Source: a virus. From it: a DNA stretch of 55,101 bases. The stretch is from IMG/VR virus record IMGVR_UViG_3300029448_000053, positions 1-55,101 of that record; one strand, given 5' to 3'. The notes beneath the pieces were generated by a model that saw only the letters and a list, made by a program, of their open reading frames with translations, was not told the origin of the DNA and searched no databases. The position numbers and the translations under genes were made by a program. Below, in pieces: positions 14,931 to 19,644 of this stretch (the stretch's first letter is position 1; the number at the start of each line of letters is the position of its first letter).

Positions 14931-15113
14931 TCACTCAAAAGAGGGTAGGTTTCCGTTCCGGTCTTGTTGTCGGTCAAGGTAGACCTGCAACACATCGTCA
15001 AAGAGAGAGGGGCGTTCCATCATGGACATATCCCTTACCCGTGTGTCTTCCAACAAGCAAATAATGTTCCTCAACCTGCGTATTTCATTCATCAGTTCTT
15101 CGTTTGTTTTCAT
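14931..15113 (-). CDS. Small helical protein, first gene of a minus-strand pair
   Basis: This is a 60-residue protein starting at 15113 behind GGAGGAAAAAAC. It is mostly one helix (NEELMNEIRRLRNIICLLED) followed by an acidic region. A longer frame would begin 17 codons earlier but lacks a ribosome site. The function is unknown; a small regulator or coiled-coil adaptor is plausible from the composition. Confidence 0.5.
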   Translation of the reverse strand: MKTNEELMNEIRRLRNIICLLEDTRVRDMSMMERPSLFDDVLQVYLDRQQDRNGNLPSFE

Positions 15114-15190
15114 GTTTTTTCCTCCATTGTTTTTACGGTTCGCCTGTTTTCTGTTCTTGTCCACTGACTTTCCCGTATGTGCATACTAAC

Positions 15191-15208
15191 ACCTATATCA
15201 TATATAAA
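15191..15208 (-). promoter_or_regulatory. TATA promoter for the 14.3-15.1 kb genes
   Basis: On the minus strand TTTATATATGATATAGGT lies about 80 bases before the 60-residue gene. It is divergent from the plus-strand element at 15348. Confidence 0.4.
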
Positions 15209-15347
15209 CGGTTCCCGAATAATGCTCATACCTATTGTTGAGTGGATGGGGGGTTGCCCCACGCACGGCCCCGCCGCCGGTATAAGACTGTTAATAGAAA
15301 ACGCGCTTGGGGAGAGATACTCGGCGTTTAGCCTCTGTAATATACTA

Positions 15348-15420
15348 TATAGTCTTAGGAAGGAACCGTGAACGGGAGGGGGCTTGGGAGAGAGATTTTG
15401 ACTTCTCCAAAAGTCCAAAC
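15348..15420 (+). promoter_or_regulatory. Operator/hairpin element C
   Basis: TATAGTCTTA (15348-15357, inside ACTATATAGTCTTA) is followed by GGAGAGAGATTTT (15387-15399), a short loop and AAAAGTCC-AAAC. The flanks GATTTT and AAAAGTC can pair, with one T-G pair. The copies at 20893 and 21024 keep this hairpin with different bases. It may drive a small RNA that ends in the T-runs near 15506-15549. Confidence 0.5.
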
Positions 15421-15505
15421 TTTTCATGCTGTCGGCTCATGGTCTGTCGAATGTGTCCGAGGTTATGAACCCTTTGTTTTCTTGCTTTTTTGGCTGGAAT
15501 TGAAC

Positions 15506-15549
15506 TTTTTTCTGTTTTTTTTTCTGTCTGTTTTTTTCTGTTTTTCTTT
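15506..15549 (+). terminator. Poly-T archaeal terminator
   Basis: Four T-runs of five to nine bases in 44 bases, split by CTG and CTGTCTG, form a classic archaeal termination signal for plus-strand transcription from element C. On either strand the stretch encodes only low-complexity Phe/Leu or Lys runs. Confidence 0.5.
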
Positions 15550-15670
15550 CGGTCTTGAATCGTTGCCCCTGATGTCCTAAACGGGGCACTGCGAGACCGG
15601 TGGCCCCTCCGCTCTCAAATGTGCCTTTTTTGGGCTGTTTTGGGCTTTGTCCGGCCAATGACAGGCCGAC

Positions 15671-15699
15671 GATTTAGGGCACCCTAAATCTCTTTTTTT
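15671..15699 (+). terminator. Hairpin plus T-run terminator
   Basis: GATTTAGG-GCAC-CCTAAATC is a perfect 8-bp stem with a 4-base loop, followed by TCTTTTTTT. It is the clearest hairpin-plus-U-tract terminator of the window and closes the region upstream of the large RNA candidate. Confidence 0.6.
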
Positions 15700-15754
15700 G
15701 TCTTCTATTCGATGGACTGCGAGCCTGTTTTTTGCAGAATGCCACTTGGATAAG

Positions 15755-15768
15755 TTGATATACTTGAG
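15755..15768 (+). promoter_or_regulatory. Probable promoter of the large RNA
   Basis: TTGATATACTTGAGCGGG resembles the GATATA promoter family. Initiation about 25 bases downstream would be near 15785; the first paired segment I see (15769-15775) begins slightly before that, so the exact start is uncertain. Confidence 0.35.
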
Positions 15769-16871
15769 CGGGAATCGGTAATTGCTTCTCCAACCGGAGG
15801 GAGCCGAAGTGAATAATTTGCCCCACACTCATTCCCGATAGTTTAGGGATTCAATGAACGGGGAGTTTCGGAGGGTCATTAAAGTGGCCGTCGAAGAACC
15901 AAGAACAATACAGCGAACACATCATGTTCCCTTCAAAAACTGAAAACATCCAGAAAAAGGAGGGATTGCGTAGCCGTGCACTGCCTCTCTTGAGAGGTGG
16001 GGTAACGGACTCTTGAAGCCGGCTTTTGAGACACCCTCTCAAATATATTCAACGGCATGGGCGTGAGTCATAGGACAAACACGAACATTTGATAGACGGG
16101 TCGGGAACACCTTGACCCTCATGGGAGTTGCCTTCGACAGAAGAGGCACTGAAAGCATGAATTAGTGGATGGTTGAGAAGCATCACTTCTCGACAGGGGC
16201 GACCCGACTCCATCCAATAATCACCGCTTACAACTCTATGACAGTGGACTTAAAACCCCACTTGAGAGCATATATGACAAACAAGACCGCAATGAACTTA
16301 TGGGAACATATATCCGAAAGGAGGCTGTTTAAAGGTGTGCGCATCAGATTCGGGTGTTTCCCGACTGATGACACTATTTAGTAGCGAATTATTGAATTAC
16401 CGATGTAACCGGCGACGGGTGCATCAAACCATTAGATTTTGAGTCTCCACAGGCGGAGGTTCGCATATACCCACCGTGGTTATGCCTTACAGGAACTTTA
16501 TTTTTCAAGACGGCGTGGCTATGCGGTAGCAATACCGGCGGAGTGTCTATGATGCGAGGGAGGCGTGAACTTTTTTGAATAGGTGAGTCGGTCCGGTTGT
16601 ATAGCCGGCTCACTGAATTATCACGGCTCGGATTCATGCTCCAACATACACTACAATACACGGACATGATGAAAGGCAATCCTCCCGAATAATCTTCTAA
16701 TCCTGTGAAAAACGGCGCTTGAGGTGCTCCGCCAATGACGGCCCCAATCACAGTCCTCGCCCACATACGGGCAGAGCGTGGGATTATCTACGGCCTAAAC
16801 CGGACCACGCAGTATGAAAATGGAGCGGAGACTCTACCGCTACCGAACTCTCTCCCTCAAAGAAAGAGAGT
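15769..16871 (+). ncRNA. Large structured non-coding RNA candidate (about 1.1 kb)
   Basis: No protein gene fits here. I find a dense series of stems: 15769-15775 with 15831-15837; 15914-15918/15924-15928; CCTCTC-TT-GAGAGG near 15984; 16025-16031/16037-16043; 16098-16102/16114-16118; a three-way junction at 16165-16215; 16243-16247/16258-16262; 16270-16276/16307-16313; a long composite hairpin at 16335-16374; 16402-16425; 16524-16537; a 10-bp stem 16583-16592/16604-16613; GGATT/CATG stems at 16630-16682; 16760-16764/16778-16782; 16824-16828/16837-16841; and 16847-16852/16866-16871. Several plus-strand loops are GNRA (GCGA at 16197 and 16412, GAAA at 16316, GCAA at 16529); on the minus strand they would not be. 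It could be a free RNA or a very long leader of the amidoligase gene. Confidence 0.6.
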
Positions 16872-16944
16872 GCTTGAAAGAGAGCAAAGAAAAGAGAGGC
16901 GCGACTTGTAGGCAAAGAGTCAAAAAAAACGGAGGAAAAAACAA

Positions 16945-19644
16945 ATGTATGAAAATGCAATGAACACAGATAGTGGTTTAGGCATGATTTTTGCTATGCT
17001 ATGGGTATTCCTACTCATGGGCGCAGTAATGACGGCCTTCATCACCCAACGATTAGAAGAAACAATGCGAATGCGTGTTGGACTCGAAATAGAAGTTCTA
17101 CGGAACGACCATACCGAGAATGCACCCAACCACTCAATTGCGACTTGGCTTGACATGAAAGCGGCCGCCGAAGGCGACGCCTACAATCAAGCGTATGAAA
17201 AGACACGAAAGAAGCGTGTCAGCATGTATCGAAAGACTCGTGCGAAGCGGCGAGAGGCAATACATAAAGCCCTGCCCCATTCATACTACAATAGACGTTT
17301 TAGAGTTCGTGATGAGTCGTGGTCTCAAGGCCGCACTGCACCACATACCAAAGTCATACCCGATGGTTCACTATCGAGTGGTGGCTTTGAAGTCGTGTCG
17401 CACCCTTTAACAGATGGTGCACATCATGGTTGGATTGCCACACTTGGTAGACTACTACGACACATAACTCGTATTGACCGCTCATGTGGGCTTCATGTCC
17501 ACATTGGCCTAAGAGACCCCGACGCTAATTTTGGCGACGGCGGTCAACTTACAATGACCGATGCAAAATCAATTGCTGGTCGAGTTGCTTGGGCCTATGC
17601 TTACTTCACCGATGCTTTCAACCAGATTGTATCACCGAGTAGACACTCCGGTCAATACTGCCAACGGTCCTACCATATGCTTCGGACTCACCCGAACCCA
17701 ACAAACCACACTACACGCCGACGAGACACTCATGTGATGGATAACCCATCACAGGAAGCCTACATACTTGATGGGACACATGAATACGAACAACTGTATG
17801 ACAATGACCCAAGTGAAGGATATGTAATCTACCGAGTTGAAAAACTTGAAGGGCAGACCTTGTGGCATAAAATGTATGACAACGCACGGAGTCATGGTCG
17901 TTATTACCATCTCAATGTGTGCAGTCTCCTTGACAGGCCCTTTGGCACTGTCGAGTTCCGTCAACATCAAGGAACATCAAACCCAGTGAAAATGAGTAAC
18001 TGGGTCGACTTATGCTATGAGTTTGTATTGCGGTGCGCCAGTGTCGAAAACTTTAATGGAATACAGGCATACTCACAGGACCTCAAAGGACTGTGGGCAT
18101 TCCTTGACTATGCGGAGGATGACCCAGTGGTTGACTATTATACCAAGCGTGCATATGTTCTAAATGGAGGCAACTTCATACGGGACTGCGACAATTGCGG
18201 TAGTAATACCTGTGTGCATTACGAGTGTGTAACAAAACTTGACAGCGACATTTCCGATGACGCCAAAAGATTCTTTGCCAACTCTCGTGATTGGTCTTGT
18301 TATGACTGCGGTAGTAGTAATTACCTTAGTGAGATTAACACTGAATATGAAACTGCTCACTGTGAATACTGCGACAATGAAGTGTCAATACACTGTTCCG
18401 GTGCAATTGCATCACTCGCCCTCGGCCTCTTTGTAGCCGCACCACTCGTGGGTGCAGTTGCACTGGTAGTCGGATGCGGTATAGGTGCAATCCATGTTGG
18501 TGCCAAGAAGTTCCAATCAAAGAAGAACTTCAAGCGTTTGTTCAATGACCTCGCAGTGCGTGGTGGACAAGCGTCTGGTTTTGCGTGGCAAAAGTCCAAA
18601 GGTGGCGAGACATCCGAACTGTGGTATATCAAATCGCCCACTCCCTCGACTCATCTCAAGAAGCGTGTCGATGACCTTGTAAAAGGCGACACTATTTGGA
18701 TAATGGGACATACTCGATTTGCCACACACGGTGAAAACAATTCCGACAATGCACACCCGCACTGGAGTCCAGACGGACACATAACACTTATTCACAACGG
18801 TGTTGTAGGTAATTATGACAAGGTGTGGAAAACCCTCGGCCTCAAACCGACGGGTCCAGTAGACAGCCAAGCAGTTGCCGCCGCTCTCGAAGTTGGTGGT
18901 ATCGAAAAGGTTGTTGAACTGTGCGTGGGCAATATGTCATTGATTTGGTCGGACAACCGAGACCCGAAAGGGACACTCAAGTTCTGGACAAACGGTGGCA
19001 ACCCACTATGTGCTGGTAGACTACATCATCCAAACAAAGGTCCACTCGTCATAGCATCGACATTACCAATCCTCAAGCAGTCTCAAAAGGGCTTGAAAAC
19101 ACACTGGTCGTGCACTATCGGAACTGAATACACAGTTCACCCCGATGGTTCAATCGAAAAGCGTGATATTGAAGGAAGTGAGGATAGTGTCGGTGTTGGC
19201 ATGTATAACTGGCGAACATATGCGAGCCTATACGGTGGTAAGTCAAAGTCCAACAAGACTCGGACTATTACAGTCAACGCACCAACGGGTAAAGCCGATG
19301 GTGTGGCTGATAATTGCACACTACCCGATGTATCGGACAGTTACGAATACGATGACATGGTGCTCAACGATGTTCTAAATGACGTGTGGGCACAGATGAG
19401 CATAGATGGTTGGATTCCAATTGACGAATACCACGGTTACGACACACAGACACATGTTGGCGTGCGGCCCGATGGAACATCCTACAAACTACCAAATTAC
19501 TACGGTGGTAAGGCTATGGACCCAGTTATGGACACAGACCAAATGGTAATGGTATTGCGTGGCGAGTTTGACCCACGCACTACGACCAAAGGATTCAATG
19601 AAGTAGAATCCTACTGGAATGACGTGCAGGAATACTACAACTAA
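16945..19644 (+). CDS. Membrane-anchored amidoligase / zinc-finger / class II glutamine amidotransferase fusion
   Basis: The protein has 899 residues and starts after GGAGG. Residues 13-33 form a membrane helix. An amidoligase_2-type (COOH-NH2 ligase) domain follows, with GLEIE at 46-50, CGLHVHI at 181-187 and EFRQHQGT from 337. A Cys-rich double zinc site lies at about 413-484 (CDNCG, CYDCG, CEYC). A second hydrophobic stretch (about 487-510) ends in VVG-C511. From C511 the sequence fits a class II glutamine amidotransferase: CGIGAI, RGGQASG, GHTRFATHG near 587-595 and HNGVVGNYD near 618. These enzymes need Cys as the N-terminal residue, so cleavage before C511 is expected if it is active. 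Known amidoligases join amines or ammonia to carboxylates on peptides; the target here is unknown. Confidence 0.8.
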   Translation: MYENAMNTDSGLGMIFAMLWVFLLMGAVMTAFITQRLEETMRMRVGLEIEVLRNDHTENAPNHSIATWLDMKAAAEGDAYNQAYEKTRKKRVSMYRKTRAKRREAIHKALPHSYYNRRFRVRDESWSQGRTAPHTKVIPDGSLSSGGFEVVSHPLTDGAHHGWIATLGRLLRHITRIDRSCGLHVHIGLRDPDANFGDGGQLTMTDAKSIAGRVAWAYAYFTDAFNQIVSPSRHSGQYCQRSYHMLRTHPNPTNHTTRRRDTHVMDNPSQEAYILDGTHEYEQLYDNDPSEGYVIYRVEKLEGQTLWHKMYDNARSHGRYYHLNVCSLLDRPFGTVEFRQHQGTSNPVKMSNWVDLCYEFVLRCASVENFNGIQAYSQDLKGLWAFLDYAEDDPVVDYYTKRAYVLNGGNFIRDCDNCGSNTCVHYECVTKLDSDISDDAKRFFANSRDWSCYDCGSSNYLSEINTEYETAHCEYCDNEVSIHCSGAIASLALGLFVAAPLVGAVALVVGCGIGAIHVGAKKFQSKKNFKRLFNDLAVRGGQASGFAWQKSKGGETSELWYIKSPTPSTHLKKRVDDLVKGDTIWIMGHTRFATHGENNSDNAHPHWSPDGHITLIHNGVVGNYDKVWKTLGLKPTGPVDSQAVAAALEVGGIEKVVELCVGNMSLIWSDNRDPKGTLKFWTNGGNPLCAGRLHHPNKGPLVIASTLPILKQSQKGLKTHWSCTIGTEYTVHPDGSIEKRDIEGSEDSVGVGMYNWRTYASLYGGKSKSNKTRTITVNAPTGKADGVADNCTLPDVSDSYEYDDMVLNDVLNDVWAQMSIDGWIPIDEYHGYDTQTHVGVRPDGTSYKLPNYYGGKAMDPVMDTDQMVMVLRGEFDPRTTTKGFNEVESYWNDVQEYYN

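Follow-up and report, generated by a model that had tools for sequence, protein, structure and literature searches.

What does a virus keep in the gap between two divergent gene blocks, if not a protein gene? The window, that is, the whole stretch of DNA analysed here, is a virus record of 55,101 bases, and the segment under study is the gap between its two gene blocks, where the original prediction placed about 1.1 kb of plus-strand RNA structure (15769-16871). Kilobase-sized structured RNAs are rare; those known, GOLLD, ROOL and OLE, belong to bacteria and bacterial phages, and little is understood of what they do. Our analysis indicates, with a probability that we put at roughly 95%, that positions 15780-16940 encode a conserved structured RNA, for which the best reading is a new large structured RNA family that matches no known one. 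If true, this would extend kilobase structured RNAs to viruses of archaea, represented by about 15 uncultured tailed viruses. Beyond the original prediction, the RNA is found to have a putative promoter of its own and a 5' head that is conserved; homologues occur in about 15 viruses, and a link to the amidoligase transcript means that a cis-acting leader competes seriously with a stand-alone 'giant phage RNA'.

15780-16940, + strand: predicted extent of the complete structured non-coding RNA, whose 3' end may continue into the amidoligase mRNA

Genome context and related viruses

The genes left of about 15 kb (tail, head, portal and terminase) form a leftward block, while the rightward block starts at 16.9 kb with an amidoligase gene, followed by replication genes for an RFC small subunit, a family B polymerase and an ERCC4 nuclease. 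The virus is tailed and has an archaeal-type replisome, and the RFC small subunit, polymerase and ERCC4 nuclease suggest an archaeal host. For its polymerase, the matches are haloarchaeal tailed viruses and cyanophages (23-24%); no phage match was found for the capsid protein, blastn against GenBank phages gave no match, and an amidoligase scan of GTDB genomes returned distant bacterial amidoligases only. The accessible part of the literature on Poseidoniales viruses contains no mention of such an RNA. The AT skew flips sign near 15.75 kb, matching the change in transcription direction.

16931-16935, + strand: Shine-Dalgarno sequence GGAGG of the amidoligase gene, with the ATG at 16945
16945-19644, + strand: Amidoligase_2 - Cys cluster - GATase_6 fusion protein (899 aa), encoded by the gene that opens the rightward block

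Invariant cysteines (C415, C418, C423 and C428) lie between the two domains of this fusion protein. Hydrophobic stretches at about residues 12-36 and 490-515 of the protein resemble membrane segments.

Two scans of IMG/VR, one for the terminase and one with an amidoligase profile, yielded some 21 related viruses with an amidoligase gene; DNA-pattern and N-terminal amidoligase scans found no further homologues. The clades comprise the window and L057 (=L003) in A, L058 (=L006) and L059 (=L004) in B, L060 (=L012) and L066 (=L011) in C, L061, L062, L063, L064, L065, L067 and L075 in D, L069 (=L051) and L073 (=L018) in E, and L070, L071 and L076 in F. In clades A to E, the region 5' of the amidoligase gene is non-coding.

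Absence of a conserved reading frame

In a six-frame reading, positions 15780-16944 contain 14-21 stops in each frame, and the longest ORF beginning with ATG, GTG or TTG measures 70 aa on the plus strand and 125 aa on the minus strand (16389-16766). Viral intergenic regions can be misread and the minus-strand ORF is there, so that the segment might be taken for a decayed or unrecognised protein gene, or for a spacer with chance stems. This ORF, however, has no tblastn relative in syntenic loci, only 5 of the 19 indels relative to L057 are multiples of three, and the compensation reported below lies far above its null. Frames and indels led us to reject the protein-coding reading, and we find either form of this explanation scarcely credible. 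No reading frame is conserved, as befits a large structured non-coding RNA, and the homologues have no codon-level conservation, as the original reading requires; its statement that no plausible protein lies here is borne out by the stops in all frames, the frame-breaking indels and the lack of protein relatives.

Putative promoter and 5' head

15588-15595 and 15716-15723, + strand: operator-like motif ACTGCGAG, two copies 128 bp apart (within 15587-15724), in the divergent control region
15755-15763, + strand: TATA-like box TTGATATAC, 29 nt 5' of the 5' hairpin (29-30 nt in relatives)
15784-15809, + strand: 5'-terminal hairpin of 8 bp with a bulged G, then CGAAG; conserved head of the RNA

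Transcription of the RNA would start from its own archaeal-type promoter: the spacing of the TATA-like box at 15755 puts the predicted start some 4 nt 5' of the hairpin, near 15780. The positions of promoter and hairpin thus shift the 5' end to near 15780 from the 15769 first proposed; on the 3' side, conserved hairpins extend up to 16870, followed by the Shine-Dalgarno sequence at 16931 and the ATG at 16945.

About 15 related viruses have the same 5' head directly upstream of the amidoligase gene; the hairpin pairs in these relatives are G-C, C-G or U-A, and U-A or C-G, followed by CGAAG. A scan of 2.9 Mb on both strands, which demanded the first hairpin pairs and, within 27-32 nt, a TATA-like hexamer, found the signature at the heads of the clade A to E RNAs, with about five matches elsewhere; L058 and L063 have the head in a form that the scan missed. 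The perfect pairing of the first pairs results partly from selection, since those pairs are in the search rule, which does not impose the narrow spacing inside 27-32 nt or the fixed position before the amidoligase gene. Variants of ACTGCGAG occur at the same place in relatives, and the boxes resemble operators to which a viral regulator might bind. Besides these boxes, T-rich runs also lie 5' of the head. In the divergent control region, towards its leftward side, a block at 15245-15496 is 71-84% conserved in clades A and B and more weakly in C; it has no obvious protein and is a possible leftward promoter or leader.

Folding energy and compensatory changes

Folded over 1000 nt, the segment has a lower energy than its dinucleotide-shuffled controls (z -3.47, 0 of 20 shuffles as low), as anticipated. 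Positions 15958-16340 (383 nt) reach z -2.3 on the plus strand versus -0.9 on the minus strand, and over stretches of 150 nt the signal is uneven, with z from about +1 to -3.5. Folding energy by itself makes a modest case, and it is covariation that decides.

For the long form, this comparison is one of two sequences, the window and L057, its sole close homologue in the collections, whose alignment consists of near-identical blocks interrupted by variable loops. Relative to column-shuffled controls, the alifold z for the two sequences reaches -5 to -7 across much of 15859-16297, -3.8 at 16298-16447 and -6.7 at 16796-16945; the trend relative to coding sequence is the same in most other clades and absent in E. 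To avoid circularity, helices were predicted by folding the window alone, and the corresponding positions of L057 were then inspected wherever the aligned segments were at least 50% identical. Pairing is retained by 22 double changes and broken by 4, against a null of 3.3±1.6 compensatory double changes (maximum 9 in 2000 permutations), whereas the adjacent coding controls show no excess (9 vs 8.1 and 7 vs 6.3 expected). Secondary structure is thus kept by compensatory change, as in large structured RNAs, with many such changes in the stems and far above the null. The reading of the segment as a plus-strand structured RNA is thereby supported from three sides: compensation, folding energy and the lack of codon-level conservation.

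The minus-strand fold also has an excess (13 vs 3.6), as helices shared between the strands would lead one to expect, but a smaller one than the plus-strand fold. As originally read, GNRA loops occur on the plus strand only, and so do U-G pairs within conserved helices; both point to RNA and to that strand. These observations also bear on a different explanation, an origin-linked element whose transcript primes or licenses replication or whose stem-loops act as DNA. Such an element would suit the position at the switch between the leftward and rightward blocks. Yet the GC skew has no clear extremum at the segment, compensation is stronger in plus- than in minus-strand folds, and U-G pairs and GNRA loops indicate RNA, so we consider an origin-linked role improbable.

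Helices and domains of the RNA

15966-16292, + strand: multibranch domain, closed by helix 15966-15971/16286-16292
15972-16011, + strand: 17-bp hairpin inside the multibranch domain, 2 double compensations
16095-16120, + strand: hairpin inside the multibranch domain, 3 double compensations
16151-16231, + strand: 16-bp interrupted stem, 4 double compensations between the window and L057
16166-16216, + strand: three-way junction of an outer helix, a 9-bp hairpin and a hairpin with a GCGA loop (16198-16201); also in L057, L058 and L059
16234-16268, + strand: 10-bp hairpin, compensation from GUGG/CCAC to GUAG/CUAC
16341-16555, + strand: long-range helix, GCAUC / GACACU with AGUGUC / GAUGC (16542-16555), plus a hairpin at 16342-16370
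16583-16613, + strand: 10-bp stem of the original prediction, in the variable segment 16560-16795
16821-16870, + strand: two hairpins just 5' of the amidoligase gene, one (16821-16845) with 2 double compensations and one (16848-16870) unchanged in L057

The three-way junction, already proposed at 16165-16215, is the best supported element and recurs with compensatory changes in other viruses. Among the four sequences, 9 of its 17 pairs are altered on both sides, 91% pairing is maintained, versus 33-49% with slid partners, and the loop is GNRA throughout (GCGA, GCGA, GCGA and GUAA). A covariance model built from the window and L057 only (R1) matches L006 (E 0.039) and L004 (E 0.66) in the syntenic place and on the correct strand, with no others in 590 kb; these E-values are weak on their own, and the later re-finding of both sequences is by construction. 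With models R1 and R2, the junction was not found in clades C to E.

The composite hairpin proposed at 16335-16374 is present (CAUCAG..UCGGG/CCCGA..CUGAUG), and L057 has the same stems without a change. In the long-range helix 16368-16375/16542-16550, compared by eye, the clade B sequences L058 and L059 have UCCGA/UCGGA as the inner part between conserved flanks. Other elements fared less evenly. The 10-bp stem 16583-16592/16604-16613 exists in the window, where it includes two G-U pairs, but even L057 shows no conservation of this stem or over much of 16560-16795. As for the proposed GNRA loops, GCGA at 16198 is GNRA in all four sequences and GCGA at 16412 becomes GUGA in L057, whereas GAAA at 16316 is kept in L058 but lost in L057, and GCAA at 16529, although present in the window, is not kept in L057.

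Comparison with known RNA families

Rfam searches returned no family, neither for the window with gathering and permissive thresholds (E<=5, 15100-17000) nor for twelve relatives with gathering thresholds; matches to nrdJ, snoU25 and MEG8 (E 1-3) were rejected as chance-level. ARAGORN found no tRNA in the 55.1 kb. With both searches empty, the earlier impression that nothing connects the RNA with GOLLD, ROOL or tRNA genes is upheld.

In phages and prophages, GOLLD is often, though not always, encoded near tRNA genes. Like the window RNA it is a highly structured non-coding RNA, in many cases longer than 800 nt, with one conserved and one fast-changing region, and it is found in phages and marine metagenomes. 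The window RNA differs in that it fails the Rfam covariance model of GOLLD, has no tRNA genes nearby and belongs to a virus with archaeal-type replication proteins, and in that its conserved part, as far as known, includes the 5' head. With ROOL it shares the character of a large ornate phage RNA without known protein function; it has no Rfam match or tRNA island, lies beside an amidoligase gene and is 1.16 kb long, compared with about 0.66 kb for the solved ROOL. OLE is likewise a large structured RNA, and its partner gene oapA adjoins it. The window RNA, in contrast, has no Rfam match, is viral instead of cellular, and is followed by an Amidoligase_2 and GATase_6 fusion, not by the OLE-associated membrane protein. 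GOLLD and ROOL, phage RNAs that often lie near tRNA islands and have no known function, form RNA cages, and large ornate RNAs resemble the window RNA in size, helix density and rapid change outside the core (PMC12286853). GOLLD and ROOL, which assemble into homo-oligomeric nanocages, are analogues of the window RNA in size and complexity only.

Stand-alone RNA or leader

From the 5' hairpin to the amidoligase ATG, the window RNA spans 1161 nt; lengths are 0.95-1.19 kb in clades A to C and 0.33-0.57 kb in D and E. There is no clear terminator between the RNA and the amidoligase gene in the window, where the last T5 run lies 370 nt before the gene, and most relatives have none at all. Without a T5 run near the gene, read-through into it is likely. 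The RNA would thus form the head of a rightward transcript that runs on into the amidoligase mRNA and then the replication genes. We lean somewhat towards a stand-alone mode, in which the RNA acts in its own right rather than as a leader: it would fold into a compact multi-domain body, be released by processing or termination, and have a structural role, as RNA or RNP, in early infection, the way in which GOLLD, ROOL and OLE are thought to work. Against this mode stand the wide range of lengths, from 0.33 to 1.18 kb, and the lack of conservation over much of 16560-16795.

Alternatively, the segment could be a giant cis-acting 5' leader of the amidoligase and replication mRNA that controls elongation, stability or translation as an attenuator, a sensor or a protein-binding site. 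Every one of the 15 genomes that have the 5' head has the same gene directly adjacent, the Shine-Dalgarno sequence and ATG follow immediately after the RNA, hairpins are conserved up to the Shine-Dalgarno sequence, and T5 runs are missing inside the RNA of most relatives and from the last 370 nt in the window. Structured 5' leaders such as riboswitches and attenuators are similarly promoter-proximal and directly 5' of one conserved gene, with no nearby terminator. The window RNA is, however, several times larger than these, and Rfam recognises no aptamer or expression platform in it; a 1.2-kb leader would be exceptional. Moreover, no conserved alternative pairing over the Shine-Dalgarno sequence was found, and some clade D members have a T-run, about 115 nt 5' of the gene, at which a separate RNA could terminate. 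The constant place beside the amidoligase gene and the absence of a clear terminator suit a leader equally well, and we judge a leader to be a real, if less probable, option.

A further step from the stand-alone reading would see here the first giant structural RNA family in archaeal viruses, an RNA or RNP body that possibly includes the amidoligase-GATase protein, whose Cys cluster could bind nucleic acid. We regard this proposal as a whole as rather unlikely. The invariant cysteines do make the adjacent protein a conceivable partner, and as the constant neighbour its gene offers a candidate that can be tested. Enough is defined of the predicted promoter, the 5' end and the core of covarying pairs for the RNA to be ordered, probed and imaged.

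Divergence among clades

The clades are too diverged for a whole-family MAFFT alignment of the RNA. In clade C, GAUGAGAC/GUCUCAUC in one helix is replaced by GAUAUGAC/GUCAUAUC, and the short clade D RNAs have a covarying hairpin of their own (5 of 13 pairs, 98% paired). The clade E viruses L069 and L073 have the 5' head and a short RNA without alifold signal. In L061, L062, L064, L065 and L067 of clade D, long GAGAGA purine runs and repeated CCTATCATGAACGGG precede the short RNAs. The clade F viruses have non-coding, partly structured stretches 5' of the amidoligase gene without the TATA-hairpin-CGAAG head, and these may hold a different RNA. Finally, L058 (about -267 to -200 relative to the amidoligase start) shares a 75-nt module at 92-94% identity with L060 and L066 (about -250 to -176), in RNAs that can otherwise hardly be aligned, which suggests an exchange of RNA modules.
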